Shown one piece after another: positions 1,856 to 61,071 of a DNA stretch of 64,000 nt. The notes beneath the pieces are model-generated. The model was not told the DNA's origin. It did no database searches and saw nothing but the letters and a program-made list of their open reading frames with translations. This DNA comes from Terrabacter sp. Root85 (lineage in GTDB: Bacteria; Actinomycetota; Actinomycetes; Actinomycetales; Dermatophilaceae). The position numbers and the translations under genes were made by a program. The number at the start of each line of letters is the position of its first letter. Positions within the stretch are counted from its first letter, which is position 1. The stretch spans positions 1 to 64,000 of the forward strand of contig NZ_LMIW01000008.1 of the NCBI RefSeq assembly GCF_001429185.1, in the 5' to 3' direction.

Positions 1856-2833
1856 GTGGCAGTGACCGACGAGACCCTGGCCGACCTCGCGCTCTCGCGC
1901 AGCTCACTGGACCGGGTGGCGCTCGAGCGTCGGCGGCCCGAGGTCCTCACCGAGCTGCTCGACGACCCGCGGACCCGCGTCGCCGAGGTCCGGGGTGACC
2001 GCATGCAGGTGTCGGCCCCAGACGGCGCACAGGTGGCCGGTGACGACGGGCTGGCGCTCGTCCTGCGCGCCCCCGAGCCCGAGGACCACGCCCGGCTCGG
2101 ACTGCACCTCGGCCGCGACGGCGACGGTACGGCATACGTGGGCGTCGTCTCGACGGACGACGGAAGCGCGGCCGACGAGGACCGGCCGCCGGAAGGCTGG
2201 CTCACGCTGCGGCAGGCGGGCGAGGCGCTCGCACCCCGCGACGCAGGCGTCTTCACGACCGCGCTGGCACTGGCCCACTGGCACGCGACGCACCGCTTCT
2301 GCCCTCGCTGTGGCGCCCCGACCCATCCCCGACAGGGTGGCTGGGTGCGGCGCTGCGAGCGCGAGGGCAGCGAGCACTACCCGCGCACCGACCCGGCGGT
2401 CATCATGTCGGTCGTCGACCCCGACGACCGGCTGCTGCTGGGCCGGGGGGCGCACTGGCCCGAGGGTCGTTTTTCCGTGCTCGCCGGCTTCGTCGAGCCG
2501 GGGGAGTCGTTCGAGTCCGCGGTCGCCCGCGAGGTCGCCGAGGAGGTCGGCATCTCCGTCGAGGCGGCGCGCTACCTCGGCAACCAGCCGTGGCCGTTCC
2601 CCTCGTCGGTGATGATCGGTTTCCAGGCGACGACGCGCGAGACCGAGCTGACGATCGACCCCGTCGAGATGGCCGAGGCGCGCTGGGTGAGCCGTGAGGA
2701 GTACCGCGACCTGCTCCGCGACGGCTCGATCCGCACGCCGAGCGGCATCTCGATCGCCAAGCGGATCATCGAGCACTGGCTCGGCCAGACGGTCGAGTCC
2801 GTCGTCGAGCCGGGCACGGGGACGAGCTTCTGA
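1856..2833 (+). CDS. nudC: NAD(+) diphosphatase NudC (NADH pyrophosphatase, possible RNA deNADding enzyme)
   Basis: The product is 325 aa. It cleaves NAD(H) to NMN(H) and AMP, and family members also remove NAD caps from RNA. After a variable N-terminal domain comes a zinc-binding motif CPRCGAP...RRC in which the fourth Cys is replaced, a variation seen in actinobacterial NudC. The Nudix box GFVEPGESFESAVAREVAEE and the NudC signature NQPWPFPSS follow. A GTG at 1856 preceded by AGGGTGG is preferred to more upstream codons because family similarity begins there. It converges on the mycoredoxin gene with a 19-bp gap. Confidence 0.93.
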   Translation: MAVTDETLADLALSRSSLDRVALERRRPEVLTELLDDPRTRVAEVRGDRMQVSAPDGAQVAGDDGLALVLRAPEPEDHARLGLHLGRDGDGTAYVGVVSTDDGSAADEDRPPEGWLTLRQAGEALAPRDAGVFTTALALAHWHATHRFCPRCGAPTHPRQGGWVRRCEREGSEHYPRTDPAVIMSVVDPDDRLLLGRGAHWPEGRFSVLAGFVEPGESFESAVAREVAEEVGISVEAARYLGNQPWPFPSSVMIGFQATTRETELTIDPVEMAEARWVSREEYRDLLRDGSIRTPSGISIAKRIIEHWLGQTVESVVEPGTGTSF

Positions 2834-2852
2834 GCCTAGTCGGCGCGGCCCG

Positions 2853-3122
2853 TCAGCCCGCGAGGCGCGAACGGACCTCGGCGAGCGAGGGGTTCGTCGC
2901 GGCCGAGCCGTCGGGGAAGACGACGGTCGGGACCGTGCGGTTGCCGCCGTTGACGTGCTCGACGAAGTCGACGTGCTCGGGATTGGCCTCGAGGTCGATC
3001 TCGGTGAACGGCACGCCCTCGCGGGTCAGCTGGCCCTTGAGGCGTGTGCAGTAGCCGCACCACGTGGTCGTGAACATCGTGATCGAGCCCTCGTCGGGCG
3101 TGACCTGCGTGGACTGGGGCAT
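2853..3122 (-). CDS. mrx1: Mycoredoxin (Mrx1-type glutaredoxin-like protein)
   Basis: This 89-aa thioredoxin-fold protein has the active site WCGYC (Cys22, Cys25) and the cis-Pro segment NRTVPTVVFPDGS. Spacing and the NGGNRTVPT sequence match mycoredoxin-1, which reduces mycothiol-protein mixed disulfides; the CGYC motif separates it from NrdH (CxQC). It lies between nudC and ppk2/uvrD2, as in mycobacteria. It fits the mycothiol biology shown elsewhere in the window by mycothione reductase and SigH/RsrA. Confidence 0.9.
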   Translation of the reverse strand: MPQSTQVTPDEGSITMFTTTWCGYCTRLKGQLTREGVPFTEIDLEANPEHVDFVEHVNGGNRTVPTVVFPDGSAATNPSLAEVRSRLAG

Positions 3123-3205
3123 CGGTTCCTACTCGTGTCGCGACGTCGTGCGTGGTGGTGGGGACGGCCCCCACGGGCGTCGTCCCTCGGTGCAAGGATG
3201 ACCCC

Positions 3206-4045: not shown

Positions 4046-6171
4046 GCGCAGTACCGTCCGCCGACGAGATCCTCGCCGGGCTCGACCCGGAGCAGCGCGA
4101 GGTCGCGATGGCCCCGCCGGGCCCCCTGTGCATCCTCGCGGGGGCCGGCACGGGCAAGACGCGCGCCATCACCCACCGCATCGCGTATGCCGTCCACTCG
4201 GGTGCGCAGCAGCCGCAGCGGGTGCTCGCGCTGACCTTCACGGCCCGCGCCGCCGGTGAGATGCGCACGCGCCTGCGTGGGCTCGGGGTGCAGGGCGTCC
4301 AGGCCCGCACCTTCCACGCCGCCGCGCTCCGGCAGCTGCACTTCTTCTGGCCGCAGGCCATCGGCGGCGCCGCCCCCGAGGTGATGAGCCACAAGGCGGC
4401 GGCCGTCGCCGAGGCGGCGAGCCGGCTGCGCATGCAGTTCGACCGCACGACCGTCCGCGACCTCGCAGCCGAGATCGAGTGGGCCAAGGTCAACCTCCTT
4501 ACGCCGCAGTCGTATGCCGCCCGCGCCCGAGAGCAGCGACGCGAGCCCCCGGGCCTCGACCTCACCGCCATGGCACGGCTCTTCGAGGCGTACGAGGACG
4601 TCAAGCAGCGTCGCGGCGTCATCGACTTCGAGGACGTCCTGCTCCTCACCGTCGGCATCCTCGACGAACGCGAGGACATCGCCCGCACCGTCCGCGGCCA
4701 GTACCGCCAGTTCGTCGTCGACGAGTACCAGGACGTCAACGACCTCCAGCAGCGGCTCCTCGACCAGTGGCTGGGGGAGCGCAAGGACCTCTGCGTCGTC
4801 GGCGACCCGGCCCAGACGATCTACTCCTTCACCGGGGCCAGCCCGCGACACCTCGTCGGCTTCTCCCAGCGCTTCCCGGGGGCGCAGGTCGTGCGTCTCG
4901 TGCGCAACTACCGCTCCACACCCCAGATCGTCGGGCTCGCCAACACCATCGTCGCGTCCGGCACCCAGGCGGCGCGCGACGGGTCGGTGCGCCTCCTCGC
5001 GCAGTCCGAGCCGGGTCCCACGCCCGAGCTGACGAGCTATCCCGACGACCCGGCCGAGGCTGCCGCGGTCGCCGACCGCATCCGCACGCTCGTCGCCGGC
5101 GGGCACCAGGCGGCCGAGATCGCCATCCTCTTCCGCACCAACGCCCAGTCCGAGGCCTTCGAGTCGGCTCTCACCGACGCCGGGGTGGCCTACCTCGTGC
5201 GGGGTGGCGACCGCTTCTTCGCCCGCAAGGAGGTGCGCGATGCGGTCCTGCTGCTGCGCGGCGCCGCCCGCAGCGACGACGGCGAGAAGCCGCTCGGCGA
5301 GATCACCCGCGACGTCATCACCGGCGCGGGCTGGTCGCATCAGCCCCCGTCGGGCAGCGGGGCCACCCGAGAGCGGTGGGAGTCGCTGACCGCGCTCGCG
5401 ACGCTCGCCGACGACATCGCGGCAGCGGCCCCCGACGCCCGGCTGCCCGAGCTCGTCGCCGAGCTCGAGCGGCGGGCGGCCGAGCAGCACGCGCCGGCCG
5501 TGCAGGGCGTGACGCTCGCCAGCCTGCACGCCGCCAAGGGCTTGGAGTGGGACACCGTCTTCCTCGTCGGCGCCTCCGACGGCCTCATGCCCATCTCGAT
5601 GGCCGAGGGTCCCGACGCCGTCGAGGAGGAGCGACGCCTGCTCTACGTCGGGCTCACGCGCGCCCGCAAACAGCTCTTCCTGTCGTGGTCCGGCGCCCGC
5701 ACGCCGGGAGCCCGGGCCACCCGCCGCGTCTCGAGGTTCCTCGCGCCGGCGGCCGACATCCTCGGCCAGGGCGCCCGCAGCGAGGCGAGGTCGGGCGGCT
5801 CCAAGCGGTCCGCGCCGAAGGTGGCACCCCTCGCGCACTGCCGCGGCTGTGGCGCCGAGCTCGTCTCCGCGGCGCAGCGCAAGACCGGCCGCTGCGACGA
5901 CTGTCCGCCCACCTACGACGAGGCGACGTTCGAGCGGCTGCGCACGTGGCGCCTTGCCGTCGCGCGCGAGGCGAGCGTGCCGGCATTCGTCGTCTTCACC
6001 GACGCGACGCTCACCGCGATCGCCGAGGACGCGCCCTCCGACGAGGGTCGTCTGTCGGTCATCAGCGGCGTCGGTGCGCGCAAGCTCGAGCAGTACGGCA
6101 GCGACGTCCTTGCCATCCTGGCCGGTGCCGACCCGCAAGAAATCTTCGAAAGCCGTTCTGCGGCAAAGTAA
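4042..6171 (+). CDS. uvrD2: ATP-dependent DNA helicase UvrD2, probable CTG start
   Basis: The product is a 709-aa superfamily 1A helicase. It has Walker A GAGTGKT (34-40), DEYQDVN with GDPAQTIYSF (Walker B region), a C4 zinc motif (Cys600, 603, 618, 621) and a C-terminal HRDC domain (about 630-705). That tail architecture identifies UvrD2 of actinobacterial DNA repair. The first ATG (4108) would delete the conserved LDPEQREVA segment. No in-frame ATG, GTG or TTG lies between it and the stop at 4033-4035, but a CTG at 4042 does, behind GAAGGGTGAT and overlapping the ppk2 stop as CTGA. The start is therefore inferred to be CTG. Confidence 0.9.
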   Translation: MSAVPSADEILAGLDPEQREVAMAPPGPLCILAGAGTGKTRAITHRIAYAVHSGAQQPQRVLALTFTARAAGEMRTRLRGLGVQGVQARTFHAAALRQLHFFWPQAIGGAAPEVMSHKAAAVAEAASRLRMQFDRTTVRDLAAEIEWAKVNLLTPQSYAARAREQRREPPGLDLTAMARLFEAYEDVKQRRGVIDFEDVLLLTVGILDEREDIARTVRGQYRQFVVDEYQDVNDLQQRLLDQWLGERKDLCVVGDPAQTIYSFTGASPRHLVGFSQRFPGAQVVRLVRNYRSTPQIVGLANTIVASGTQAARDGSVRLLAQSEPGPTPELTSYPDDPAEAAAVADRIRTLVAGGHQAAEIAILFRTNAQSEAFESALTDAGVAYLVRGGDRFFARKEVRDAVLLLRGAARSDDGEKPLGEITRDVITGAGWSHQPPSGSGATRERWESLTALATLADDIAAAAPDARLPELVAELERRAAEQHAPAVQGVTLASLHAAKGLEWDTVFLVGASDGLMPISMAEGPDAVEEERRLLYVGLTRARKQLFLSWSGARTPGARATRRVSRFLAPAADILGQGARSEARSGGSKRSAPKVAPLAHCRGCGAELVSAAQRKTGRCDDCPPTYDEATFERLRTWRLAVAREASVPAFVVFTDATLTAIAEDAPSDEGRLSVISGVGARKLEQYGSDVLAILAGADPQEIFESRSAAK

Positions 6172-11504: not shown

Positions 11505-11526
11505 ACGCGACGACGCGCTCCGCCTG

Positions 11527-11550
11527 ACGGCATACGGCCACGTATGCCGT
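11527..11550. terminator. Bidirectional hairpin made of two inverted GTATGCCGT motifs
   Basis: ACGGCATACG (11527-11536) and CGTATGCCGT (11541-11550) form a perfect 10-bp stem with a GCCA loop, centred between two convergent genes. Each arm is a copy of the over-represented octamer seen throughout the window. Inverted motif pairs serving as terminators are a known feature of uptake-signal sequences in Neisseria and Pasteurellaceae; the parallel is inference. Confidence 0.7.
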
Positions 11551-11577
11551 GACGCCCCGCGCGCGCCGGCCCGTCGG

Positions 11578-14210: not shown

Positions 14211-14247
14211 AACGCGAGGGCCCGCGCGGCGGCATACGATTGCGGGC

Positions 14248-14697: not shown

Positions 14698-15830
14698 GGA
14701 CGATCAAGCGCGTGCCGGAGCAGCCCACCGGTACCGACCTGCCCACTCGTGCCGAGGTGCTCGAGGGTGAGGACACCGGCAGGCTCACCCGCGGCAACAA
14801 GGCGGTCCTGGCGGCGTTCTTCGTAGCCCTCGTCGTCATGGTCATCGGGTCGGTCGTCCACCTGCCGTATGCCGTCATGAGCCCCGGGCCGACGCAGGAC
14901 ACCCTCGGCACCTCCGGCGCCCAGAACAAGCCGATCATCGCGATCTCGGGGTTGCCGATCTACCCGACCGACGGCGCGCTGCGCTTCACCACGGTGCGCG
15001 TCGAGGGCGGACCGGGCTACCCCGTCGACGCGTGGGACATCCTGCAGGCGTGGGTCGACCCCGCCCGCGACGTCTTCCCCGTCGACGACGTCTTCGACCC
15101 GCAGGTCACCCAGGAGCAGGTGGCCGAGGCGAACGCCGTCCAGATGGAGGGCTCGCAGGAGGAGGCCACGGCCGTCGCGCTGCGCGCGATCGGCAAGGAG
15201 GTGCCGACCCACGTCGCCATCGCGGGCATCACCGACTCGTCGAAGGCCAAGGGTCTGCTCAAGGTCGGCGACCGTCTCGACAGCATCGACGGCGAGCCCG
15301 TGACGACGACGCAGGCCCTGCGCGACGCCCTCCAGAAGAAGAAGCCCGGCGAGAGCGTGTCCCTCACGGTCACGCGCGCCGGCAAGGAGGTGACGGTCGA
15401 CGTCCCGACCGTCGAGGGCCAGGGTGGCCGCACGGCTCTCGGGGTCCTCCTCGGGCTCGACCACGACTTCCCGGCCAAGGTCACCATCGATGCCGGCGCC
15501 ATCGGCGGTCCGTCCGCGGGACTCATGTTCTCCCTCGGCATCTACGACAAGCTGACGCCCGGCCCGCTGGCCGGGGGTCACCAGATCGCCGGCACCGGCA
15601 CGATCGACGACGAGGGCAAGGTCGGCCCCATCGGCGGCATCCGGCAGAAGCTCGCCGGTGCCCGCTCGGACGGCGCCGCCTACTTCCTCGCCCCGGCCGA
15701 CAACTGCAACGAGGTGGTGGGCCACGTGCCCGACGGCCTCGACGTCTTCAAGGTGGGCACCTTCGACGAGGCTCGCACCGCGGTCGAGGCCATCGCCAAG
15801 GGCCAGACGGGCTCGCTGCCCCGCTGCTGA
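14694..15830 (+). CDS. Membrane-anchored PDZ and Lon-like serine protease
   Basis: The product is 378 aa, with one N-terminal membrane helix (about 33-55), a PDZ domain (GLLKVGDRLDSIDGEPV, about 190-235) and a Lon proteolytic domain. That domain contains the nucleophile GGPSAGLMF (Ser274) and a likely general-base Lys319 in GGIRQK. It matches the YlbL/Rv3194c family of secreted-side proteases. GTG 14694 overlaps the moaE stop. The neighbours UPF0182 and DUF2342 are the same as in mycobacteria, which suggests a conserved envelope-quality-control block; that role is inferred. Confidence 0.92.
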   Translation: MRTIKRVPEQPTGTDLPTRAEVLEGEDTGRLTRGNKAVLAAFFVALVVMVIGSVVHLPYAVMSPGPTQDTLGTSGAQNKPIIAISGLPIYPTDGALRFTTVRVEGGPGYPVDAWDILQAWVDPARDVFPVDDVFDPQVTQEQVAEANAVQMEGSQEEATAVALRAIGKEVPTHVAIAGITDSSKAKGLLKVGDRLDSIDGEPVTTTQALRDALQKKKPGESVSLTVTRAGKEVTVDVPTVEGQGGRTALGVLLGLDHDFPAKVTIDAGAIGGPSAGLMFSLGIYDKLTPGPLAGGHQIAGTGTIDDEGKVGPIGGIRQKLAGARSDGAAYFLAPADNCNEVVGHVPDGLDVFKVGTFDEARTAVEAIAKGQTGSLPRC

Positions 15831-16387: not shown

Positions 16388-16417
16388 GCCCCCATGCTGC
16401 CGTATGCCGTCGGGTGG

Positions 16418-16670: not shown

Positions 16671-19600
16671 GTGAGCGACAGCAACTTCGGCCCCCCGCCG
16701 GGCAACTTCAACGACGACGACTCGGGCTCGCCCCGACGCCCCGACGCGGCCACGCTGCCGCCCACCCGACGCCCGCTCGTCACGTCCCTCGTCGTGGCGG
16801 CCGCGCTGCTCGTGGTCATCGCCATCGCGGCGCAGTTCTGGACCGAGGTGCTGTGGTACCAGTCGGTCGGCTTCGCGGGGGTCTTCAGCACCCAGATCGT
16901 CACGAAGATCCTGCTGGGTCTCGTCGGTGGGCTGCTGACAGCGGCGATGGTGTGGTCGAGCATCCACTTCGCCTTCCGCAACCGTCCGATCTACGCCCCG
17001 TCGCCCGACACGCAGGCCATGGAGCACTACCGCCAGCTCGTCGAACCGATGCGTCGCACCGCGACGATCGCCGCACCGCTCGCGGTCGGCCTCTTCGCCG
17101 GTCTGTCGGCAGCGACGCAGTGGGACACCTTCCTGCTGTGGCGCAACGGCAGCCCGTTCGGCACCACCGACCCCGAGTTCGGCCTCGACATCGGCTTCTT
17201 CGTCTTCGACCTGCCGTGGATCAACTTCGTCGTCGCGTTCCTGACGATGATCCTCGTCATCGGCTTCATCACGGCCGCCTTCACGCACTACCTCTACGGG
17301 GGCATCGTCGCCGGCAACAAGATGCGCTCGACCCAGGCCGCCCGCGTGCACCTGTCGGTCATCGCGGCGGCCCTCGTGCTCGTGCGCGCCGTCGCCTTCT
17401 GGGTCGACCGCTACAACCTCGCGACCGCGCAGTCGACGAAGATCACCGGCATCCAGTACACCGAGTCGCACGCGATCATCCCGACGAAGGGCATCCTCGC
17501 GCTGGCCGCCGTCATGTGCGCGATCATGTTCCTCACGACGATCTGGACGCGCTCGTGGCGCCTGCCGCTCGTCGGCGTCGCCGTGCTGGCGGTCATCGTC
17601 GTCGCGGTCGGTGGCATCTACCCGGCCCTCGTGCAGTCGCTCAAGGTGCGTCCGTCGGAGAAGTCCCTCGAGGTCCCGTACATCCAGCGCAACATCAACG
17701 CGACCCGGGCGGCCTACGGCTTCAGTGCGATCAAGGTCGACTCGTACGACACGAAGACCGTCGCGGCGCCCGGCCAGCTGCGTGGCGACGCGGCCACCGT
17801 GCCGGGCATCCGACTCATCGACCCCAACGTCGTCGGCCCGACGTTCAAGCAGCTCGAGGCGAGCAAGGGCTACTACCAGTTCGCCGACGTGCTCGACGTC
17901 GACCGCTACCAGATCGAGGGCAAGTCGCAGGACACCGTCATCGCGGCCCGCGAGCTCGACCTCAGCGGCGTGCCCGACGGCCAGCGCAACTGGCTCAACG
18001 ACCACACCGTCTACACCCACGGCTACGGCGTCGTCGCGGCCAAGGGCAACACGCGGGAACCCGACGGTCGTCCGACCTTCATCGAGTCGCAGATCGGCAC
18101 CGAGGGTGCGCTCGGGAAGTACGAGCCGCGCATCTACTTCGGCGAGAACTCGCCCGAGTACTCCATCGTCGGCGGCAACAAGCAGGAGTTCGACTACCCG
18201 GACCCCCAGGGCACCGGGCAGATCAACTACACGTACGCCGGCGTGGGTGGCGTGCAGCTCGACGCCGTCCGGCGCCTCGCGTATGCCGTGAAGTACCGCG
18301 AGATCAACTTCCTCCTCTCCGACGCGGTGACCAACGACTCGCGCGTCCTCGACCACCGAACGCCGCGCGAGCGCGTGCAGCGGGTCGCGCCGTGGCTGAC
18401 GCTCGACGGCAACGCCTACCCCGCGGTCGTCGACGGTCGGGTCCAGTGGATCCTCGACGGCTACACGACGTCGGCGAACTACCCGTACTCCCAGACGACG
18501 ACGCTCGACACGGCGACCGAGGACGCCGTGACGAGCACCCGCAACTCGGTGCGTGCTGTGCAGGCCGGCCAGGTCAACTACGTCCGCAACTCCGTCAAGG
18601 CGACGGTGGACGCCTACGACGGCACGGTGACGCTCTACCAGTGGGACGAGCAGGACCCGGTGCTCAAGGCGTGGATGTCGATCTTCCCGGGCACGGTCAA
18701 GCCGCTCAGCGACATCAAGGGCTCGCTCATGGCGCACCTGCGCTACCCGGAGGACCTCTTCAAGGTGCAGCGCACGCTGCTGGAGAAGTACCACGACCAG
18801 GACGCAGCGTCGTTCTACGGCGGCCAGAACTTCTGGCGCGTGCCCGACGACCCGACGCAGCCCGCCGACAACCTGCTCCAGCCGCCGTACTACCTCTCGC
18901 TCGCGATGCCCGACCAGTCGAGCCCGGCGTTCTCGCTGACCTCGACCTTCATGCCGACCGGTGACCGCAACGTGCTCTCGGGCTTCCTCGCCGTGGACGG
19001 CGACGCGGGCAGCCAGGACGGCAAGAAGTCGTCGGCCTACGGCAAGATGCGCCTTCTCGAGACGACGGGTGGGTCGGTCAACGGCCCCGGTCAGGTCTAC
19101 AACGACATGCGGACCTCGACCGTCACCTCCAACGACGCGTCGCTCGGTCGCCAGCTGACCCTCGCGCAGTTCATCTCGACGACCTCGTCGACCGGGGCCA
19201 GCGTCATCTTCGGCAACCAGCTGACCCTGCCGGTCGGTGGGGGACTGCTCTACGTCCAGCCGATCTACGTCCAGGCCCGATCGAGCGGCTCGGGTACCTA
19301 CCCGCGCCTCTCGGCCGTGGCGGTCGCCTTCGGCGACAAGATCGCCTGGGCCGGCTCGCTCGATGCGGCTCTCAACGACCTCTTCGGTGGTTCGTCGGGT
19401 GCGCAGGCCGGTGACACCGGCACGACTCCGACTCCGACCCCGACTCCGACACCGACACCGGGCAGCACGGCGACGCCGACGCCGACGCCGTCGTCGACCG
19501 CGACGCCCGGGAGCCCGGACGCGGCGGCGCTGTCGAAGGCGCTCAAGGACGCCCAGGCGGCGTACGTCGAGGGCGAGGCTGCTCTCAAGCGGGGTGACTT

Positions 19601-21291: not shown

Positions 21292-22758
21292 GTGCTGCTG
21301 ACCATCACGACGACGGCGACGGGGACCACGGTCGCGAGCGACCTCGGCTACCTGCTGCACAAGCACCCGGACCGTGTGCAGGCCTTCGAGCTGCCGGTCG
21401 GCACGGCACACGTCTTCTACCCCGAGTCGGACGAGCAGCGGTGCACCGCAGCGTTGCTGCTCGAGGTCGACCCCGTCGGCATCGTCCGGGGCAAACGCTT
21501 CGGCGGCGACGGCTTCGCGCTCGCCCAGTACGTCAACGACCGTCCGTATGCCGCGTCGTCGATGCTCGCGGTGGCGCTCGGCAAGGTGTGGGGCACGGCG
21601 CTCAAGGGACGGTGTCCGGCCCGACCGGACCTCGAGGGCGCCGCCCTCCCGCTCACCGTCGCCGTGCCGGCGCTGCCCTGCTCGGGTGGCGTGGACCTCG
21701 TCCGGCGGCTCTTCGCGCCCCTCGGCTGGCAGGTCCGGGCCGACGCCGTCGCGCTCGACCCCGAGGTGCCGCGGTGGGGCGACTCGCGCTACGCCGACGT
21801 GACGCTGACGGGCACCATGCCGCTCGCCGACGCCCTGAGCCACCTCTACGTGCTCCTGCCGGTGCTCGACGGCGCGAAGCACTACTGGGTCAGCACCGAC
21901 GAGGTCGACAAGCTCGTCCGGAACGCCGGCGCGTGGCTGGGCAGCCACCCGGAGCGCGACCTCGTCACCCGTCGCTACCTCAAGCACCAGCGCGTGTTCG
22001 TCGCGGAGGCCACCGAGCGCCTCGACGCGCTCGACGACGTCGCCGCCGAGTCGCTGCAGCCCGAGCCGACCACCGTCGGTGACGGTGTCGAGCCGGCGAC
22101 CCCGCTCGTCCGACTCCGGTCCGCCGCCGTCCTCGCCGCCCTGCGCGACACGGCCTCGCACCGCGTCGTCGACCTCGGCTGCGGCGAGGGCGCGCTGCTG
22201 CGCGAGATGCTGGCCGACCCCGCGTTCACCGAGGTCGTCGGCGTCGACGTCGCGGCCGGTGCCCTCGAGCGTGCCGAGCGCCGGCTGGCGCTGGAGCGGA
22301 TGCCCGACAGCGTCCGTGCGCGCCTGACGCTGCGCCAGTCGTCGGCCACCTACCGCGACCGCGCGCTCGAGGGCTTCGACGCCGTCGTCCTCATGGAGGT
22401 GGTCGAGCACCTCGACCCCGACCGGCTGCCGGCCCTCGAGCGCAGCGTCTTCGGCCACGCGCGCCCGATGGCGGTCGTCGTGACCACGCCGAACGCCGAG
22501 TTCAACGTGCGTTACGAGCGTCTCGAGGCCGGCGCGATGCGCCACCCCGACCACCGGTTCGAGTGGACCCGTGCCGAGTTCGGGCAGTGGGCCTCGGCCG
22601 TCGCCGAGACCCACGGGTATGCCGTCGAGCTGCGTCCTGTGGGCGAGGTCGACCCGGAGGTCGGGTCACCCACCCAGCTCGCCCTCTTCCGACGCGTGGA
22701 CCTCCGTCCGGACTCCGCGGCCGACGCCGGCCTGACGAGCGAAGGTGGTGCGGCATGA
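21292..22758 (+). CDS. hen1: Bacterial Hen1, 3'-terminal RNA ribose 2'-O-methyltransferase
   Basis: The product is 488 aa. The N-terminal half is the bacterial-Hen1 ligase-activating region (LLTITTTATG...DLGYLLHKHPDR). The C-terminal half is the methyltransferase, with an SAM loop VVDLGCGEGALL, the metal-binding MEVVEHLDPDRL, and TTPNAEFN followed by RHPDHRFEWTRAEF. Hen1 methylates the 2'-OH at a cleaved RNA end before Pnkp reseals it, giving repaired RNA that resists recleavage. GTG 21292 matches the conserved start; GTG 21277 is an alternative. The stop overlaps the pnkp ATG as ATGA. Confidence 0.93.
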   Translation: MLLTITTTATGTTVASDLGYLLHKHPDRVQAFELPVGTAHVFYPESDEQRCTAALLLEVDPVGIVRGKRFGGDGFALAQYVNDRPYAASSMLAVALGKVWGTALKGRCPARPDLEGAALPLTVAVPALPCSGGVDLVRRLFAPLGWQVRADAVALDPEVPRWGDSRYADVTLTGTMPLADALSHLYVLLPVLDGAKHYWVSTDEVDKLVRNAGAWLGSHPERDLVTRRYLKHQRVFVAEATERLDALDDVAAESLQPEPTTVGDGVEPATPLVRLRSAAVLAALRDTASHRVVDLGCGEGALLREMLADPAFTEVVGVDVAAGALERAERRLALERMPDSVRARLTLRQSSATYRDRALEGFDAVVLMEVVEHLDPDRLPALERSVFGHARPMAVVVTTPNAEFNVRYERLEAGAMRHPDHRFEWTRAEFGQWASAVAETHGYAVELRPVGEVDPEVGSPTQLALFRRVDLRPDSAADAGLTSEGGAA

Positions 22759-25406: not shown

Positions 25407-26115
25407 ATGACAGCGAGCACGCGTCAGACAGCCGTGCGTCGGCCGTCCCACCTCACTCGGGACAGCGGCCGGCCCGGGGTGCGCGCCCGGCTCTCCGCCG
25501 CGGCTGCGATGCTCGTGCTCATGCTCGGATCCGTGGTGCTGTCGGCGCAGTCGTCGGCCGCAGCCACGAGCTCGGGCCGCGCGATGTGGGTGTGGTCGTG
25601 GGCCGACGCGGGGTCCGTGGTCCAGCTGGCCCAGTCCCGTGGCGTCGGGACGCTCTTCGTGGGCGTGCCGCCCGACCTCGCGACGAGCCCGCCTCACCCT
25701 GCTCGACCGGCTCGTGGCCGCCAGTGGTGGCCGCCCCGTCGAGGCGGACATCCCCTTCTGGTTCGGCCAGGTCGAGGCCGGCAAGAAGTCGACCCTCGAC
25801 ACGGAGACGATGCGGCGCGTCTCGGCAGTGACGATCAGGGCCTACCGCAACACGGCCGCCGGCCCGGACGGCACCCTCGCCATCGCCGCCGCCGAGCTCA
25901 GGACCGCAGCGGCGCTCGGTAGGCCCGTCCGGATCGGCCAGGAGACGAACGACCTCGGGACCGACCCCACCGAGGTCAAGCAGACCTTCTACGGCCAGAC
26001 CCTGACTCGGATGAACGACCAGCTCGCCCAGGTCGACTCGGGCGCCGCGGCCTACGCGACGTACGCCGGCGTCGCGGTCCACGACGCGACGGGGTATGCC
26101 GCGATGGCGCCGTGA
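25407..26115 (+). pseudogene. Decayed secreted protein gene: frameshift and probable internal deletion
   Basis: An ATG at 25407 behind AGGAGG begins a signal peptide (LSAAAAMLVLMLGSVVLSAQSSAAA) and a mature start GRAMWVWSWADAGS. That frame becomes nonsense after FVGVPPDLATS near 25685. Sensible protein resumes one base out of phase (ARLTLLDRLVAASGG...IPFWFG...VTIRAYRNTA...IGQETNDLG...AVHDATGYAAMAP) and stops at 26115. The joined product would be about 235 aa. The abrupt jump suggests that a central, probably catalytic, section of a TIM-barrel-like secreted protein is missing. Family unnamed. A sequencing error could explain the frameshift but not the missing segment. Confidence 0.75.
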
Positions 26116-36745: not shown

Positions 36746-36937
36746 GCGTTTTCCTCCTCTGGCCGCGACCCGTTCGAACGCGTCGTGACCATCGTGGACC
36801 TGTGGACACCTACGGTATCGACATACCCGCGGCGCAGGACGTGCCGCCCACGCCGGCCCTCGGGGTCGTCGCGGTCGTGACGGACGCGTATGCCGTCACG
36901 ATCCATGTCGCCGGCCACCCGGCATACGCTGTGGCGC

Positions 36938-38543: not shown

Positions 38544-39323
38544 ATGGCAAAGGACAAGAAGACCGATCCGAGCGCCGCCCTGCGGCTGACGGACCCGAGC
38601 ACCGACACGAGCGCGACGACCCGGGGGGCGACGCCTGCACCGTCCGACCCCGACGACCTCGCGCGCGCCGATGCGACCGTCGACGTCGCGAGCGAGAGCG
38701 AGCACGCACGTCGAGCGCGCTTCGAGCGCGAGGCGATGCCCCTGCTCGACCAGCTCTACAGCGCTGCTCTGCGCACGACGCGCAACCCGAGCGACGCCGA
38801 GGACCTCGTGCAGGAGACGTTCGCCAAGGCGTACGCCGCGTTCCACCAGTACAAGCCGGGCACCAACCTCAAGGCGTGGATGTACCGCATCCTCACCAAC
38901 ACCTACATCAACAGCTACCGCAAGAAGCAGCGCCAGCCCCTCGAGTCCGACTCGGCCGAGATCGAGGACTACCAGCTGGCGCGGGCCGAGTCGCACACGT
39001 CGGTCGGGCTCCGGTCCGCCGAGGCCGAGGCGCTCGACCACCTCCCCGACAGCGACGTCAAGCGCGCCCTGCAGGCGATCCCCGAGGAGTTCCGCCTCGC
39101 GGTCTACTTCGCCGACGTCGAGGGCTACGCCTACAAGGAGATCGCCGAGATCATGGACACGCCCATCGGCACCGTCATGAGCCGCCTGCACCGCGGCCGC
39201 CGTCAGCTGCGCGAGCTCCTCTCGGAGTATGCCGCCGACCGCGGTTTCGCGGCGGCCGGCACCTCCGAGGGTGCGGCGATGGGTGCGGGGATCGCTGCTG
39301 GCACGGAAGGAAGCCGGTCATGA
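38544..39323 (+). CDS. sigH: RNA polymerase ECF sigma factor SigH/SigR (thiol-oxidative stress)
   Basis: The product is 259 aa. Region 2 ([26 protein letters not shown]...[19 protein letters not shown]) and region 4 ([44 protein letters not shown]) are those of the SigR/SigH group. An N-terminal extension of about 50 residues (rich in Thr, Asp and Ala) precedes the sigma domain; a later start is possible. The anti-sigma gene overlaps its stop as ATGA. The sigma controls thioredoxin, mycothiol and proteolysis genes in relatives. Confidence 0.93.
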
Positions 39324-44181: not shown

Positions 44182-44846
44182 CCGGCCGACCGTGACGACG
44201 CTCCCGGTCCGTCCGGGCCGGGAGCGTCGTCGTCGGCCGGGTCGGTGAGTCCTCTGGCCGCGAGGGCCTCACCCGTCGAGCGTGCGAAGGCGACGACGTG
44301 CACGACCGTCGGCACGACGACGGCCCGTGGGTTGCGGTCGAGACCTCGGGCGCGGGCCGACTCGCGCACGCTGGAGAACGACCCCGCCACCCAGGGCACC
44401 GAGCGCACGACGACGCCGAGGGTGAGTGCCACGACCTCGGGGTCGACGACGCGGCGCAGCGGGCGGGCCGCCCGCACCACGCCGTCGAGCAGGTCGGTGA
44501 CCGGCGTCGTCGCCGTGAGGATGCCCGCCGCGACGAACGCGTTGACGATGCCGAGGACGACGCGGACGGCATACGCGAGGTCGCGCGACCACCACTGGAA
44601 GGCCAGCAGGACGACGAGGACGGGGAGGAGGCCACGCATCGAGCGCACGAGGCGGCGCGCCGGGAGGCGCGCTGCCAGCACGACCCCGACCAGGACGACG
44701 GTCGTGACGGCGAGCGGCCACACCGACTGCGCGAACCAAGGCGTCGCCCCGACGACGAGGACGCCGACGAGCTTGAGCCACAGAGGCATTCGATGCACCA
44801 CCGACGTGCCGGGGACGTGCGCCGTGAACAGGCCGGGACCGTTCAC
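44178..44846 (-). CDS. bioN: Biotin ECF transporter T component BioN
   Basis: The product is 222 aa with four or five hydrophobic helices. The EcfT coupling signatures [12 protein letters not shown] (ArgGly motif) and [14 protein letters not shown] lie in the C-terminal cytoplasmic part. The start GTG 44846 overlaps the bioM stop as GTGA. Its extreme 3' coding sequence also contains the hairpin that probably terminates the convergent malic-enzyme transcript. Confidence 0.9.
44182..44240. terminator. Long inverted repeat inside the bioN 3' end, terminator for malic enzyme
   Basis: CCGGCCGAC-CGT-GACGACGCTCCCGG and CCGGGAGCGTCGTC-GT-CGGCCGG pair over more than 20 bp with a small internal loop, starting at the malic-enzyme stop codon. 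Confidence 0.75.
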
Positions 44847-47332: not shown

Positions 47333-48391
47333 TCACGACCCGTGCGCGCCCGAGACGTGCACGACCGCCGACAGGCCGTCCGCCGACGGCGAGCCGGCCT
47401 CGCCGACCAGCCACTCGCACCACAGCGCGGCCCGCAGCCGGGCGACGAGCTGTCCGAGCTCGTAGGGGCTCTCGGCGCCGAGGGTGACCGAGAGCCGGCC
47501 CACGTCGGCGGTGCCCGACTCGACGCCGTGCAGCGCAGCGCGAACCGCCCGGGACACCGCGTCGAGGCGGGTGTCGGTGCCGGCGGGGGCGATGCCCACG
47601 GCAACGGCCTCCGGGCTGCCCGGCTCGATGCCCAGAGCGGCACGCACGGCCTCGACGCGTCCGTAGCCGAACCAGTCCCCGGGGCCGGTGCGCACGAGGT
47701 CGCGTCCTCGGGGGTGGGACTCGAGGGGCTCGTCGACGAGGATCCCCGGCAGCCCCCGCAGCACGGCGGCGGGCACGGCGGACACCTTGCCCTTCGCGAG
47801 GTCTGCCGCGGCGGCGATCTCGTCGGCGACCGCGCGGGTCGTTACCTCGAGCGGCTTGCCGTCGGCGTCGGTGCCCCCGCGCAGGTCGTCGAGGACGCGC
47901 AGCCCGTGGGCGCCGAGGGCGAAGTCGACCTGTCCGACGCGCCAGGCACGTCCGGCGGTGTCGCTCAGGACCACCCCGACTCGGACGCCGTGCCGCGCGA
48001 CGAGGGCGTCATGGACCTGCTCACAGATGCCGTCGGGGTCGTGGGGGAGCAGCAGCCACCCGCCGCGCGCCCCCGTGTTGGAGCCGTCGACACCCGCAGC
48101 CGCCATGATGGGCCCGGCCTTGGCGCGGACGATCCGCGTGACGCGGTCGCCCACCGAACGCTCGGCGACGACGTACTCGGTCTCGCCGTGCACGACGCGG
48201 TCCTTGTCGGGGTCGTGCGTCACGAGACCGAGGGCCTTGCTCGCGATCTTGCTCGAGACGACGACGACGTCGCCGTCGGCGAGCCGGATGCCCGCGTGGT
48301 CGAGACCGACCTGGAGCACATCGGCGAGGTCGTCCCCCTCGCGCACCTCGGGTATGCCGGTGAGCGGGGTGATCGTGATCGGCGCGGTCAC
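47333..48391 (-). CDS. fbiB: Coenzyme F420-0:L-glutamate ligase (FbiB/CofE)
   Basis: The product is 352 aa. Residues 1-240 match CofE (ADGDVVVVSSKIASKALG, LPHDPDGICEQVHDAL, VVLSDTAGRAWRVGQVDFALGAHGLRVLDD, LEVTTRAVADEIAAAADL). Mycobacterial FbiB carries a C-terminal nitroreductase-like domain of about 200 residues; here only about 110 residues follow (DWFGYGRVEAVRAALGI...), without clear FMN-binding motifs. The GTG start overlaps the fbiA stop as GTGA. It adds glutamates to F420-0. Confidence 0.92.
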   Translation of the reverse strand: MTAPITITPLTGIPEVREGDDLADVLQVGLDHAGIRLADGDVVVVSSKIASKALGLVTHDPDKDRVVHGETEYVVAERSVGDRVTRIVRAKAGPIMAAAGVDGSNTGARGGWLLLPHDPDGICEQVHDALVARHGVRVGVVLSDTAGRAWRVGQVDFALGAHGLRVLDDLRGGTDADGKPLEVTTRAVADEIAAAADLAKGKVSAVPAAVLRGLPGILVDEPLESHPRGRDLVRTGPGDWFGYGRVEAVRAALGIEPGSPEAVAVGIAPAGTDTRLDAVSRAVRAALHGVESGTADVGRLSVTLGAESPYELGQLVARLRAALWCEWLVGEAGSPSADGLSAVVHVSGAHGS

Positions 48392-49392
48392 GCCCGGGCT
48401 CGCTCCGTGCGCAGCCGCAGACCGAGGTCGAGGGCCGCCCCGGCCATGTCGGCCGCCGCCTCGACCGAGCTCATGAGCAGCGGGCGGCGCAGGACCTCGA
48501 GACCCCGGCGTGCCGGCATGGGGTCGTCCTCGTCGACGAGCCAGCCGTCGAGGAAGTCGGCGTAGAGCCCGGCGACGCCGGCGCTCGACTCCTCGACCCC
48601 GATCGTGCGCAGGCACACGTCGGCGTGGCCCCGCACCGGGCGCCCGCCGACGAGGGGGGAGACCCCGACGACCGGCGCGCGGGTGCCGCGCAGCGCGTCG
48701 CGCACACCCGGGACGCCGAGGATGATGCCGATCGAGACGACGGGGTTGCTCGGCGGCAGGATGACGACGTCGGCCTCGCGGATCGCGTCGAGCACGCCGG
48801 GAGCCGGCGTGGCCCGGTCGAGGCCGGCCACGACGAACCGGTCGGCTGTGAGCTCTGCGCGGTGGCGCACCCACCACTCCTGGAAGTGGATCGCCCGCTG
48901 CTCGCCGTCCTGCTCGACGACGACGTGCGTCTCGACGGGGGTGTCGGTCATCGGCAGGAGGCGTACGCCGAGCTCACCGAGCCCCCAGCGTTCGGAGAGC
49001 CGCTCGACGACGCCGCTCAGCGGCATACCCTGGCCGAGCAGCTGCGAGCGGTAGACGTGGGTGCCGAAGTCCCTGTCTCCCAAGGTGAACCACTGTGGCT
49101 CGGCGCCGAGCGCGGCGAGCTCCTCGGCGAGGTGGTGCGACTCGTCGGCGCGCCCCCAGCCCTGCCCCTCGTGGATGCCTCCGCCCAGGGTGTAGAGCAG
49201 CGTGTCGATGTCGGGGCACACCCGCAGGCCGAAGAGCGTGATGTCGTCGCCGGTGTTGCCGATGACCGTCAGCTCGAGCGGATCGGGGCGGTCGGGATCG
49301 GCGACCAGTGGGTAGGTCTGTCGGGCGTGGTGGAGCAGGCCCCGGAGGAACCGGGCGCCGCCGACTCCTCCGGCCAGGGCGGTGATGCGCAT
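48388..49392 (-). CDS. fbiA: 2-phospho-L-lactate (or phosphoenolpyruvate) transferase FbiA/CofD
   Basis: The product is 334 aa. The N-terminal GGVGGARFLRGL and TVIGNTGDDITLFGLRVCPDIDT are the CofD/FbiA signatures, with ILPPSNPVVSIGIIL later. It transfers the phosphoenolpyruvyl or phospholactyl group to Fo in coenzyme F420 synthesis. Together with fbiB it forms a two-gene operon divergent from whiB2, the same arrangement as in mycobacteria. ATG 49392 is an unambiguous start. Confidence 0.95.
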   Translation of the reverse strand: MRITALAGGVGGARFLRGLLHHARQTYPLVADPDRPDPLELTVIGNTGDDITLFGLRVCPDIDTLLYTLGGGIHEGQGWGRADESHHLAEELAALGAEPQWFTLGDRDFGTHVYRSQLLGQGMPLSGVVERLSERWGLGELGVRLLPMTDTPVETHVVVEQDGEQRAIHFQEWWVRHRAELTADRFVVAGLDRATPAPGVLDAIREADVVILPPSNPVVSIGIILGVPGVRDALRGTRAPVVGVSPLVGGRPVRGHADVCLRTIGVEESSAGVAGLYADFLDGWLVDEDDPMPARRGLEVLRRPLLMSSVEAAADMAGAALDLGLRLRTERARA

Positions 49393-52900: not shown

Positions 52901-53210
52901 CGTGCCCACGTCGGGACCGCACGCCGCGGTCGACACGATGCTTCCGGCCGGGAAAGCTGCACGCTTCGTCGTCCTGGCCGAGCCCGCCGAGTGGTCGCAG
53001 CAGGCGCTCGTGACCTTCGACGGCCGAGAGCTCCTACCGGTGGCCGGGGCCGCCCAGCCCACGTATGCCGTGCCCCCCACCGCCGGGGAGCTCGAGATCG
53101 ATCTCGCTGCAGCACAGCCGTGGTGGCGGCTCGGCCAGGGTCTGCTGCTCGGCTTCGTGGTGTTCATGGCCGTGCCCTTCGGCAACCGACGCTCGAGGAG
53201 GCGCACATGA
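49941..53210 (+). CDS. Large membrane-bound family 2 glycosyltransferase
   Basis: The product is 1089 aa. An N-terminal GT-A domain (about 45-330) has IVVVHNGAAWLAQCLDGL, WVLHDDTVPRANAL (acidic metal site) and GGFDPAFVEHGADLDLGWR. It is followed by about twelve membrane helices (residues 430-880) and an outer domain. This architecture is shared by actinobacterial envelope polysaccharide enzymes near whiB2. Start GTG 49941; GTG 49956 is an alternative. The stop overlaps the next start as ATGA, coupling it to the DUF5719 gene. The product glycan is unknown. Confidence 0.87.
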   Translation: MQVAAVPDELAEDLSTPAGAGSASSVSLSAPPSTGQRPNGTVDAIVVVHNGAAWLAQCLDGLAAQTLPPARLVIVDVASSDTSNAIARAHTGVRRAIPSVEIVRLDGRAPIGRAIDAGVAALPVGADASTSWVWVLHDDTVPRANALAQLLQAGLRSKSVGVAGPKIVDWDDPRRLVEMGIQITRTGRRLASPARGEADQGQYDHRADVLAVSTSGMLVRRSAYDDIGGFDPAFVEHGADLDLGWRAQLAGHRVIVVPGAVVRDASAGIDGERPGVPRPRELERRGRRAARQVTLARCSPLAAPFLAVWMALSALVSSVTLLVAKRPRQAWRELTDVSALLHPFATLGARWRGRRTKRLRRDHLGTLFVAPAVAARTTIDHIQDAITPERSRARREAALTTETGPVADDSESLDHLPASLPRRIVSHPGFLAVLAVLVATTAAWRDAIRAGALSPTNAGVAGGELRPVSTDASGLWHAFRDAWHGAGLGTGAESGPHLAVLSALTWLAERVPGVAESRSSAGVTIAWLLFLTPVLATWSAYLAGRVVTSSRVARALGALAWGTAGVAATGIAQGRVGVAVVHVLLPFVLAGFCLAARRDGTFTASFATALATAVVGAFAPPLLALSVVAALLLLVLGPGLRRARALVLLVVPTALLGPWVAQFVEDARLLLSGPGLVTTVDDRGPSGVLAHVLGEPGATSWAVWLGAPLVVLGVLGLATRGRSRAESVGLLVGGVLALLGLAAALLSGRVVLGSAETGVGQSATAHLWAGVGVQLWLAGLLVGVLAGSRPVLESLARPGRRWGFAAAVAAAALAVVPVLASAASWGVQGIGHTLSVGQATLPAVAIEQGSGPLGNRLLLLRPSDDVVDFVLAGQEPGELLRDLDRTPDADDAPLVDAVANLVGGRGADSLDSTALARLGVGFVQVRATADSALARRLDSSGGLSRLGTSERGILWKVQPLPAADGGVAATAPSRARLVDADGALLRVVPTSGPHAAVDTMLPAGKAARFVVLAEPAEWSQQALVTFDGRELLPVAGAAQPTYAVPPTAGELEIDLAAAQPWWRLGQGLLLGFVVFMAVPFGNRRSRRRT

Positions 53211-55142: not shown

Positions 55143-55270
55143 GTCTCCACTCTAGATCGACCGTCACCTCGCGCACGGACGCCACCCGGCGGCATACGCC
55201 CTCGGTGATCTCGTGCTCGGACGGCGTGGTGATTCGTCCTCTTCGGGAGGGCGGACTAGAGTCCCGGATC

Positions 55271-58558: not shown

Positions 58559-58653
58559 CCCGCCCGGCACGCCGAGGGCGTATGCCGTGTGCCGACCGCG
58601 TGCGGAACGGATGCCGTCCGGGGTCGGTCGGGTCTCCCACGTAGGCTGCCACG

Positions 58654-60045
58654 GTGACGGAGCACTACGACCTGGCCATCATCGGCAGCGGTTCGGGCAA
58701 CTCGCTCGTGACCCCCGACTTCGACGACAAGCGCGTCGCGATCATCGAGGGTGGGACGTTCGGCGGCACCTGCCTCAACGTCGGCTGCATCCCGACGAAG
58801 ATGTTCGTCTACGCCGCGGACCTCGCGCGCGACGTGCGCGAGGCCGGCCGCTACGGCGTCGACGCCACGCTGGAAGGTGTGCGCTGGGCCGACGTCCGCG
58901 ACCGCGTCTTCGGGCGCATCGACCCCATCTCGGACGGTGGCCGGCGCTATCGCGTCGAGGGACCCAACACGACGGCCTACCTCGGGCACGCGCGCTTCAC
59001 CGGTGACCGGACGCTCACGGTCGACCTCGGCGACGGCCGCGAGGAGACGGTGACGGCCGACCAGGTCGTCGTGGCCGCCGGCGCCCACCCGGTCGTGCCC
59101 GACGTCGTCACCGAGTCGGGCGTGCCGTTCCACACCTCCGACACGATCATGCGCATCGACGCGCTGCCCGAGCGGCTCGCGATCATCGGCGGCGGTTTCA
59201 TCGCGGCCGAGATGGCCCACGTCTTCGCCTCGTTCGGCGTGAAGGTGACGGTCGTCGTCCGGTCGTCGCTGCTGCTGCGCCACCTCGACACCGACATCGC
59301 ACGGCGTTTCACCGACCTGGCCCGCGAGCAGTGGGACGTGCGCACCGAGACGGCGGTCACGGCCGTCGAGACCGGCGTCGGGGGGGCGGGCGTACGCCTG
59401 CGCCTCGACGACGACACGGCCGTCGACGCCGACCTGCTGCTCGTCGCCACCGGTCGCCGGCCCAACAGCGCCGACCTCGGCGTCGAAGCCGGGGGCCTGC
59501 GGCTGCTCGACGACGCGCGCATCGAGGTCGACGCCTACGGCCGCACGAGCGCCGCGGGTGTCTGGGCCCTCGGCGACATCAGCGCGCCGCACCAGCTCAA
59601 GCACCTGGCGAACGCCGAGGCCCGGACCATCGCGCACAACCTCGTGCACCCCGACGACCTGCGCGTCCTGCCGCACGAGAACGTGCCGTCCGGCGTCTTC
59701 AGCCACCCGCAGATCGCCACGGTCGGCCTGACCGAGCAGGAGTGCGTCGAGCAGGGCCGCGCGCACACGGCGTACGTCCAGGCCTACGGCGACACGGCAT
59801 ACGGCTGGGCCATGGAGGACACGACGGGCATCTGCAAGCTCGTGGCGGACCCCACGACGGGTCTCCTCCTCGGAGCCCACCTCATGGGTCCGCAGGCGAC
59901 CTCCCTCATCCAGCCGCTGGTGCAGGGGATGGCGTTCGGCACGACCGTCCACGACCTCGCCCGCGGGCAGTACTGGATCCACCCGGCTCTCGCGGAGGTC
60001 GTCGAGAACGCGCTGCTCGGGCTGAAGCTCGACGACCCGGCCTGA
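58654..60045 (+). CDS. mtr: Mycothione reductase
   Basis: This 463-aa flavoprotein disulfide reductase has an FAD loop IIGSGSGNS, the redox disulfide GGTCLNVGCIPTK (Cys40, Cys45), the NADPH-binding IIGGGFIAAEMAHVF and ATGRRPN, and the C-terminal His-Glu pair in YWIHPALAEVVENAL. GSGSGN with the DFDDKRVAIIE segment separates it from lipoamide dehydrogenase. It regenerates mycothiol, so with mycoredoxin and SigH/RsrA it shows that the host uses mycothiol. Confidence 0.93.
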   Translation: MTEHYDLAIIGSGSGNSLVTPDFDDKRVAIIEGGTFGGTCLNVGCIPTKMFVYAADLARDVREAGRYGVDATLEGVRWADVRDRVFGRIDPISDGGRRYRVEGPNTTAYLGHARFTGDRTLTVDLGDGREETVTADQVVVAAGAHPVVPDVVTESGVPFHTSDTIMRIDALPERLAIIGGGFIAAEMAHVFASFGVKVTVVVRSSLLLRHLDTDIARRFTDLAREQWDVRTETAVTAVETGVGGAGVRLRLDDDTAVDADLLLVATGRRPNSADLGVEAGGLRLLDDARIEVDAYGRTSAAGVWALGDISAPHQLKHLANAEARTIAHNLVHPDDLRVLPHENVPSGVFSHPQIATVGLTEQECVEQGRAHTAYVQAYGDTAYGWAMEDTTGICKLVADPTTGLLLGAHLMGPQATSLIQPLVQGMAFGTTVHDLARGQYWIHPALAEVVENALLGLKLDDPA

Positions 60046-60087
60046 GCGCGTTCCCAGCGGGCTCCCAGACCACCCTAGGATGACGCC

Positions 60088-61029
60088 ATGGCAGGCGGAC
60101 TCGTAGCGCTCCTCGACGACATCGCGGCACTCGTGAAGCTCGCGGCGGCATCCGTCGACGACGTGGGCGCTGCAGCCGCGAAGGCCAGCGTCAAGGCCAC
60201 CGGCGTCGTCGTCGACGACACGGCCGTGACCCCGCGCTACGTGCAGGGTCTGGCACCCGAGCGCGAGCTGCCGATCATCAAGCGGATCGCCCTCGGCTCG
60301 CTGCGCAACAAGCTGCTCATCATCCTCCCGGTCATCATGGTGCTCAGCCAGTTCGTGCCGTGGCTGCTGACGCCGATCCTCATGGTCGGCGGCGCCTACC
60401 TCGCCTACGAGGGCGCCGAGAAGGTCTGGGAGATCGTCTCGGGCCACGAGGAAGAGGAGGCCGAGGTCGGCGAGGTCGACGAGAAGGCCGTCGTCTCCGG
60501 CGCGATCCGCACCGACTTCATCCTGTCGGCCGAGATCATGGTCATCGCCCTCAACGAGGTCGACACCGAGCCCTTCGTCTCGCGCCTCATCATCCTCGTC
60601 ATCGTGGCGCTGCTCATCACGGCGCTCGTCTACGGCGTCGTCGGCCTCATCGTCAAGATGGACGACGTCGGCCTGCACCTCGCCGGGCGCGAGTCAGGGG
60701 CCTCGCAGCGCATCGGCCGGGGCCTCGTCAAGGGGATGCCGAAGCTGCTCTCGGTGCTGTCGACCGTCGGCATCGCGGCGATGCTCTGGGTCGGTGGGCA
60801 CATCCTGCTCGTCGGCGTCGACGAGCTCGGCTGGCACGCGCCCTACGACCTCGTCCACCACCTCGAGGAGGGCGTGGCCGGGGTGGCCGGCATCGGTGGC
60901 TTCCTCGCCTGGGTCGTCAACACGCTCGCGTCGGCCCTCATCGGTCTCGTCGTCGGCGCCGTCGTCATCGCCGTCCTGCACGTCATCCCGCGCCGCACGA
61001 AGCACGACGAGGCCGCAAGCACGCACTGA
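60088..61029 (+). CDS. DUF808 family membrane protein (YedI-like)
   Basis: The product is 313 aa. Conserved DUF808 stretches are MAGGLVALLDDIAALVKLAAA, YVQGLAPERELPIIKRIALGSLRNKLLIILP and SGAIRTDFILSAEIMVIALNEV. Six or so membrane helices are visible. The function is unknown in all bacteria, although conservation is high. ATG 60088 is unambiguous. A hairpin follows at 61072. Confidence 0.92.
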   Translation: MAGGLVALLDDIAALVKLAAASVDDVGAAAAKASVKATGVVVDDTAVTPRYVQGLAPERELPIIKRIALGSLRNKLLIILPVIMVLSQFVPWLLTPILMVGGAYLAYEGAEKVWEIVSGHEEEEAEVGEVDEKAVVSGAIRTDFILSAEIMVIALNEVDTEPFVSRLIILVIVALLITALVYGVVGLIVKMDDVGLHLAGRESGASQRIGRGLVKGMPKLLSVLSTVGIAAMLWVGGHILLVGVDELGWHAPYDLVHHLEEGVAGVAGIGGFLAWVVNTLASALIGLVVGAVVIAVLHVIPRRTKHDEAASTH

Positions 61030-61071
61030 CCCGCACCGCTGGAGCCGGCCGCTCGGCGTATGCCGTGTGCT

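Follow-up and report, generated by a model that had tools for sequence, protein, structure and literature searches.

The octamer GTATGCCG, studied here from a stretch of 64,000 nucleotides of Terrabacter sp. Root85 (contig NZ_LMIW01000008.1, G000:C8:1-64000 in our numbering, hereafter the window), is probably a DNA uptake sequence (DUS) of naturally transformable Intrasporangiaceae/Dermatophilaceae (Micrococcales), as judged from genome comparisons. The word is spread over the whole genome, symmetric between the strands and enriched in noncoding DNA, and it is maintained by selection or drive acting on the DNA. This maintenance, the noncoding excess, inverted pairs at gene ends, lineage-specific words, few copies in integrated elements and the presence of Com and Tad genes together argue for an uptake-like role. 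A preliminary description, made from the letters of the window alone, had counted 29 exact GTATGCCG/CGGCATAC sites by eye and called the word over-represented. All 29 lie at exactly the listed starts, while 100 dinucleotide shuffles of the window gave a mean of 0.69 sites and a maximum of 4, and an order-3 Markov model predicts 1.5. Under this model GTATGCCG and its one-base shifts are the top three 8-mers of the window by z, and GTATGCCG and its extensions CGTATGCCG and CGTATGCCGT rank highest among words of 8 to 10 bases. The genome of Terrabacter sp. Root85 (G000; 4.87 Mb, 15 contigs) carries 2,300 sites (1,168 on the plus and 1,132 on the minus strand) compared with 237 copies (112 and 125) of the reversed word. 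The base 3' of the word is T in 54% and C in 33% of 225 sites, as had been noted for the window, and the base 5' is C in 64%, so that the fuller form can be given as (C)GTATGCCG(T/C), also written CGTATGCCGT/C.

Coding and noncoding status was assigned throughout with a simple gene caller written for the purpose, no standard program. The 225 sites, found in 464 kb comprising the window and 20 further stretches of the genome, include 58 fully noncoding ones, 103 genic sites on the strand of the gene, 61 genic sites on the opposite strand and 3 at gene edges. In a 524-kb sample 65 of 253 sites are noncoding where 12.6% of the sequence is (P=1e-8), and the density is 0.71-1.25 sites per kb between genes compared with 0.40 per kb within them. 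The earlier count of 10 intergenic sites among the 29 is reproduced by our gene calls; the 9% noncoding share then given for the window is not, the larger sample of the same genome giving 12.6%. Within 564 kb, GTATGCCG harbours 112 of 223 TAT codons and 20 of 31 ATA codons, compared with 55 of 2,741 TAC codons, and the rare ATA codon reported at position 48352 is read there as ..C GGC ATA C.. on the minus strand. In seven congeners whose aligned sequence is 83-94% identical, sites were retained in 137 of 169 comparisons, compared with 36-70% for composition-matched octamers; conservation between related genomes had been proposed earlier as a check. Retention holds for noncoding sites (42/51 vs 91/298 for octamers 12-24 bp away), for coding sites (95/118 vs 294/708 control octamers), and for TAT codons (54/60 inside the word vs 13/31 elsewhere). 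We call genomes rich with at least 110 sites per Mb and poor with fewer than 60 per Mb; at 78-80% identity the poor Intrasporangium flavum (G028) keeps 0 of 12 aligned sites, and the rich I. oryzae and Humibacillus keep 3 of 5 and 6 of 10. A codon-pair or protein-level effect (Tyr-Ala, Ala-Tyr) would fit the 138 of 164 genic copies that are read in these two frames and is nevertheless extremely improbable, being already contradicted by the flanks of synonymous pairs, where G..G surrounds 112 of 130 TAT-GCC pairs and only 41 of 215 TAC-GCC pairs, by the noncoding excess and by the conservation of noncoding sites. The preliminary argument for selection on DNA is supported, and the outcome it had named as its refutation, a TAT-GCC effect with no intergenic excess, is not what the data give.

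The strands are balanced along the 1.35-Mb contig C1, with 99 plus and 97 minus sites in 20 stretches, and the halves of the contig give 44/43 and 55/54, the replication origin not having been located. Spacing is more even than random, with a coefficient of variation (CV) of 0.78 that only 1 in 4,000 random placements reached. Neighbours less than 60 bp apart form 13 pairs, of which 12 are inverted and 1 is direct, where 6.5 pairs in any orientation are expected by chance. Ten of the 12 inverted pairs are wholly intergenic, 9-94 nt beyond the 3' end of a gene; the remaining two belong to the three-site cluster of the window, which lies at a divergent gene start and at no gene end, its first two sites being noncoding and the third within a gene called from 36938. 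Three inverted pairs were folded, giving hairpins of 10, 17 and 19 contiguous pairs (z -4.3, -8.1 and -8.4); the first of these is the inverted pair of the window, a terminator-like 10-bp hairpin between convergent genes (-21.3 kcal/mol). A terminator or another transcriptional element spread through the genome would account for the ten pairs beyond gene ends, and it is very unlikely as an explanation of the word, since just 13 close pairs occur among 225 sites and most copies are single, genic and on either strand, which largely contradicts such a role for single coding copies. Among other rich genomes with gene calls, a noncoding excess was seen in 7/10 (G129, G119, Phycicoccus elongatus Lp2 [G068], Humibacillus xanthopallidus [G039], G015, G018, G043), G003 being left out of this count as the gene caller found no genes in its 20 kb; these ten genomes together with G003 have 7 inverted close pairs and 2 direct ones. 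The bases flanking the core vary by genus, being C..T in Humibacillus and C..C, then T, in G015.

In 149 genomes drawn from 53 genera of the family the density of GTATGCCG is bimodal, with 82 rich, 60 poor and 7 intermediate genomes; 30 of the 53 genera hold at least one rich genome, and the highest count among rich genomes is 4,724. Of 248 genomes drawn across the order, 229 come from 19 other families; these carry at most 177 copies each, about as many as the reversed-word controls. A further 62 ComEC loci (1.2 Mb in all), most of them labelled as belonging to other families, contain 13 copies; within the draws, enrichment is confined to the Intrasporangiaceae/Dermatophilaceae. Rich named ComEC loci include those of Knoellia remsis, I. 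oryzae and Ornithinimicrobium sp. F0845, and the word is absent from those of I. flavum, Dermacoccus abyssi and one Phycicoccus isolate. In a tree of the single gene comEC (47 sequences) rich and poor lineages are intermingled and the earliest branches are rich, a pattern suggestive of several losses of GTATGCCG within the family.

Other words take its place in some lineages. One genome (G123, genus g28) carries GTATGACG in 34 copies in 80 kb, 11 of them noncoding, and the 3 pairs that these form are all inverted; the GTATGCCG copies of G123, nearly all coding (1/28 noncoding), may be relics. Genera g38 and g39 are not enriched in GTATGCCG (7-41 copies), and each of the 11 genomes drawn from them holds 1,746-3,180 copies of CCCCTTCG, compared with 87-396 in the other 138 genomes. 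CCCCTTCG, found in stretches L093-L096, L089-L092 and L257, has 33 genic copies on the same and 39 on the opposite strand and noncoding shares of 22% and 28% where 7% and 17% of the sequence is noncoding; its close pairs are inverted in 6/6 cases, and the one folded forms 17 contiguous pairs (z -6.5). The family therefore has lineage-specific words: GTATGCCG, GTATGACG in one genome, and in two genera CCCCTTCG, which is unrelated to GTATGCCG. Two unrelated and mutually exclusive words in one family would be the expected outcome of a changed receptor preference. A further candidate, GTACGCCG, is enriched in G069, G081 and Kribbella (stretches L101-L104, L123-L124, L156 and L163); it is doubtful as a dialect, being nearly coding-only in the first two (noncoding 1/45 and 1/37) and elevated in actinobacteria elsewhere as well (median ratio 1.72). 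None of 12 aligned I. flavum sites reads GTACGCCG, as would be expected of a fossil from synonymous decay; the word may be such a fossil, a codon effect or another dialect. No clear replacement word emerged in 60-100 kb each of genera g2 (G083), g11 (G088) and g49 (G081).

These distributions bear on two further explanations. The preliminary description had left a choice between an uptake-like word and a chromosome-architecture motif; noncoding excess and gene-end inverted pairs favour the former, strand balance and gene-end hairpins speak against the latter. A site by which a nucleoid protein specific to the family folds, segregates or repairs the chromosome via about 2,300 copies would explain the genome-wide, even spread and the occurrence in 9/9 drawn genomes of the genus of the window. 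We consider it unlikely: polar octamers of the Chi/KOPS type (KOPS, FtsK-orienting polar sequences), which serve recombination and segregation, show a strong replication strand skew and GTATGCCG has no polarity in the stretches sampled along 1.35 Mb, its inverted pairs form hairpins at gene ends, two genera carry an unrelated word of like anatomy in its place, and 60 of the 149 genomes manage without it. HIP1 of cyanobacteria is a palindromic octamer over-represented genome-wide, and the abundance of GTATGCCG resembles it; mismatch repair is also unusual in actinobacteria, so that a methyltransferase target or a mutational bias could be imagined as the force that maintains the word. Such a repeat is improbable here, as GTATGCCG is not palindromic, an unrelated word stands in its place in g38 and g39, and mutational bias hardly explains stems of 17-19 pairs at gene ends or the limitation to one family.

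The machinery that an uptake sequence would need is widely present. ComEC was found in 145/149 genomes, the four without it being drafts that are 58-95% complete, and ComEA lies directly upstream of ComEC in G000 and beside it in 30/30 loci searched. PilM, a marker of type IVa pili, occurs in just 5/149 genomes and was rejected as a partner; its rarity makes a ComP-type machinery unlikely and leaves the Tad/Flp pilus as candidate. The Tad locus of G000 comprises an FHA-FtsK/SpoIIIE gene, TadA, TadB, TadC, Flp, TadE, TadF and TadG and resembles the tad-1 cluster of Micrococcus luteus with its FtsK neighbour. Competence in M. luteus likewise involves tad-1 beside an FtsK/SpoIIIE-family gene as well as comEA-comEC (PMC4322843, PMC8467076, PMC6370729; sources cited by PMC number are drawn on in excerpt); its tad-1 proteins are termed essential for transformation or pilus assembly, and the FtsK-gene mutant is one of three strains listed with a reduction of at least 1000-fold (PMC8467076). 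Neither PMC4322843 nor PMC8467076 uses 'uptake sequence', 'uptake signal' or 'sequence-specific' in its main text, and no M. luteus genome was searched for such a word. Beside this locus two side observations were made: a secreted lamin-tail-domain protein is encoded directly downstream of tad-1 (G000:C13:113396-113851) in 9/9 drawn genomes of the genus, and in I. flavum, a word-poor sister of this genus, the Tad-linked FtsK-like gene contains one in-frame stop (G028:C23:402111-406511).

A tad-1-type locus was found in 28 genomes, 9 of which belong to the genus of the window or its sister, so that the draws are not independent; 8 further stretches hold other Tad loci or none. The locus is interrupted in 8/28 genomes (Table 1), with a large serine recombinase gene right at the junction in six (G000, G113, G122, G130, G028, G088) and no recombinase at the interrupted loci of G143 and G026. 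The recombinases are 27-37% identical in the comparisons made, three carry the Pfam domains Resolvase and Recombinase, and the elements interrupting tadA or tadC in the six genomes differ from one another. GTATGCCG is scarce in four such elements of rich hosts, two of them partial, with 3 copies in 30 kb where 13.5 are expected (P=7e-4; small sample). Prophages break competence genes in other bacteria, namely comYC, comK, comFA and comM (PMC4774983), and the term 'tad' is absent from the text of that source. The interruption of tad-1 by integrative elements supports its role as the putative uptake pilus; since tadC is interrupted in G000, the sequenced strain is possibly not competent while the element is in place.

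Table 1. GTATGCCG sites of the window, resting on exact word matches and a simple gene caller, and interruptions of the tad-1-type locus in the family.
Feature	Genome or stretch	Position	Strand	Basis
GTATGCCG site, coding	window	2130..2137	-	exact match, gene call
GTATGCCG site, coding	window	4185..4192	+	exact match, gene call
GTATGCCG site, coding	window	4512..4519	+	exact match, gene call
inverted pair (11528 -, 11542 +), both noncoding	window	11526..11551		exact matches, folding
GTATGCCG site, noncoding	window	14230..14237	-	exact match, gene call
GTATGCCG site, coding	window	14867..14874	+	exact match, gene call
GTATGCCG site, noncoding	window	16402..16409	+	exact match, gene call
GTATGCCG site, coding	window	18281..18288	+	exact match, gene call
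GTATGCCG site, coding	window	21546..21553	+	exact match, gene call
GTATGCCG site, coding	window	22617..22624	+	exact match, gene call
GTATGCCG site, coding	window	24769..24776	-	exact match, gene call
GTATGCCG site, coding	window	26094..26101	+	exact match, gene call
GTATGCCG site, noncoding	window	26162..26169	-	exact match, gene call
GTATGCCG site, coding	window	26544..26551	+	exact match, gene call
GTATGCCG site, coding	window	28102..28109	+	exact match, gene call
GTATGCCG site, coding	window	30576..30583	-	exact match, gene call
three-site cluster (36888 +, 36920 -, 36949 +), alternating orientation	window	36888..36956		exact matches, gene call
GTATGCCG site, coding	window	39227..39234	+	exact match, gene call
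GTATGCCG site, coding	window	44567..44574	-	exact match, gene call
GTATGCCG site, coding, in gene 47333-48391 (-)	window	48352..48359	+	exact match, reading frame
GTATGCCG site, coding	window	49021..49028	-	exact match, gene call
GTATGCCG site, coding	window	53063..53070	+	exact match, gene call
GTATGCCG site, noncoding	window	55190..55197	-	exact match, gene call
GTATGCCG site, noncoding	window	58580..58587	+	exact match, gene call
GTATGCCG site, coding	window	59795..59802	-	exact match, gene call
GTATGCCG site, noncoding	window	61058..61065	+	exact match, gene call
tadC interruption	G000, G026	codon 265		
tadC interruption	G088	codon 302		
tadA interruption at Walker A	G113, G028	codon about 204		
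tadA interruption	G122, G130	near codon 290		
tadA interruption	G143	codon 230		
integrative element in tadA/tadC	G000:C13 (L226/L142)	about 100133-110301		
integrative element in tadA/tadC	L228	12212-17690		
integrative element in tadA/tadC	L264	4415-14474		
integrative element in tadA/tadC	L265	9214-17826		
integrative element in tadA/tadC	L263/L234			
integrative element in tadA/tadC	L259	3592-14015		
interrupted locus, no recombinase found	L247			
interrupted locus, no recombinase found	L255			

By analogy with known uptake systems we infer a chain in which a receptor at the cell surface, probably a component or partner of the Tad pilus, would bind GTATGCCG and favour the uptake of tagged DNA, that is DNA of kin, via ComEA/ComEC. 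Recombination of the tagged fragments would then let the word accumulate by molecular drive, as has been argued for the DUS of Neisseria and the uptake signal sequence (USS) of Haemophilus, and where the receptor preference is lost or changed the word would erode or be replaced, leaving rich, poor and differently tagged genera. The DUS of Neisseriaceae reaches thousands of copies, is commonly intragenic and forms intergenic inverted pairs linked to terminators, and its dialects track phylogeny and may coexist in one genome (PMC3630211). GTATGCCG is similar in being short and present in thousands of copies, many of them intragenic, with gene-end inverted pairs and lineage-specific words; it differs by its 8-base core and its high-GC actinobacterial hosts, and CCCCTTCG, being unrelated to it, is not a one-base dialect. 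The spacing of about 2 kb is of the same order as the roughly 1 kb of the USS of Pasteurellaceae, whose accumulation has been explained via molecular drive (PMC7811141, PMC12616744), whereas the extended profile of GTATGCCG lacks AT-tract flanks and the hosts belong to another phylum with another cell envelope.

Several points weigh against an uptake sequence. Uptake or transformation was reported for no member of the family in the literature searched, and the ComEA, ComEC and Tad-protein columns and the genes tested revealed neither a receptor nor a gene that distinguishes rich from poor genomes. No alignment column of ComEA separates the two classes; columns 747 and 748 of ComEC are kept in rich genomes and in only 7/15 poor ones, with one column showing the opposite; and columns of Flp, TadF, TadG and TadC vary in some poor genomes with no clean separation. 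TadF had the most flagged columns, and its position 113 was rejected, as the rich genome G018 carries the 'poor' residue. As presence switches, ComEC and TadE are near universal (145/149 and 144/149), and the FtsK-like gene, with paralogues counted too, is absent from 7/60 poor and 3/82 rich genomes (P=0.10). Poor genomes seem to keep ComEA, ComEC and tad-1 about as conserved as rich ones, so that a genome can lose the word and still retain the machinery. The noncoding excess is missing in 3/10 rich genomes, namely G143 (5/32 vs 28%, gene calls looking incomplete), G060 (4/31 vs 17%) and G123 (1/28 vs 15%). Evenness of spacing is not clear when the 17-kb gap at the integrated element and the ComEC and tad regions are included (CV 0.92; random 1.00 ± 0.06), and in the only phage examined, Tetrasphaera phage TJE1 (45 kb), the 2 sites are no fewer than the 0.6 expected from its composition. 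Residues of TadA, TadB and TadE likewise gave no clean separation, the conservation count of TadA being lowered by interrupted copies, and the lamin-tail-domain gene was rejected as a switch, matching in 56/149 genomes, rich and poor alike by inspection.

Uptake sequences beyond the Neisseria and Haemophilus families did not appear among the matches listed, which does not establish their absence from print. On balance we lean towards a third uptake-sequence system of independent origin, which would be the first in a monoderm phylum and be based on a Tad pilus, in a family that would have switched between unrelated words and lost them repeatedly, and whose pilus genes would have been cut repeatedly by integrases. 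If this is true, tagging of DNA would have arisen a third time, in cells that lack an outer membrane and use another pilus, and a comparison of the systems could test why DNA is tagged, what the receptor is and whether drive or benefit is responsible. Many Intrasporangiaceae would then be transformable with tagged DNA, which would provide a practical genetic tool for the family.

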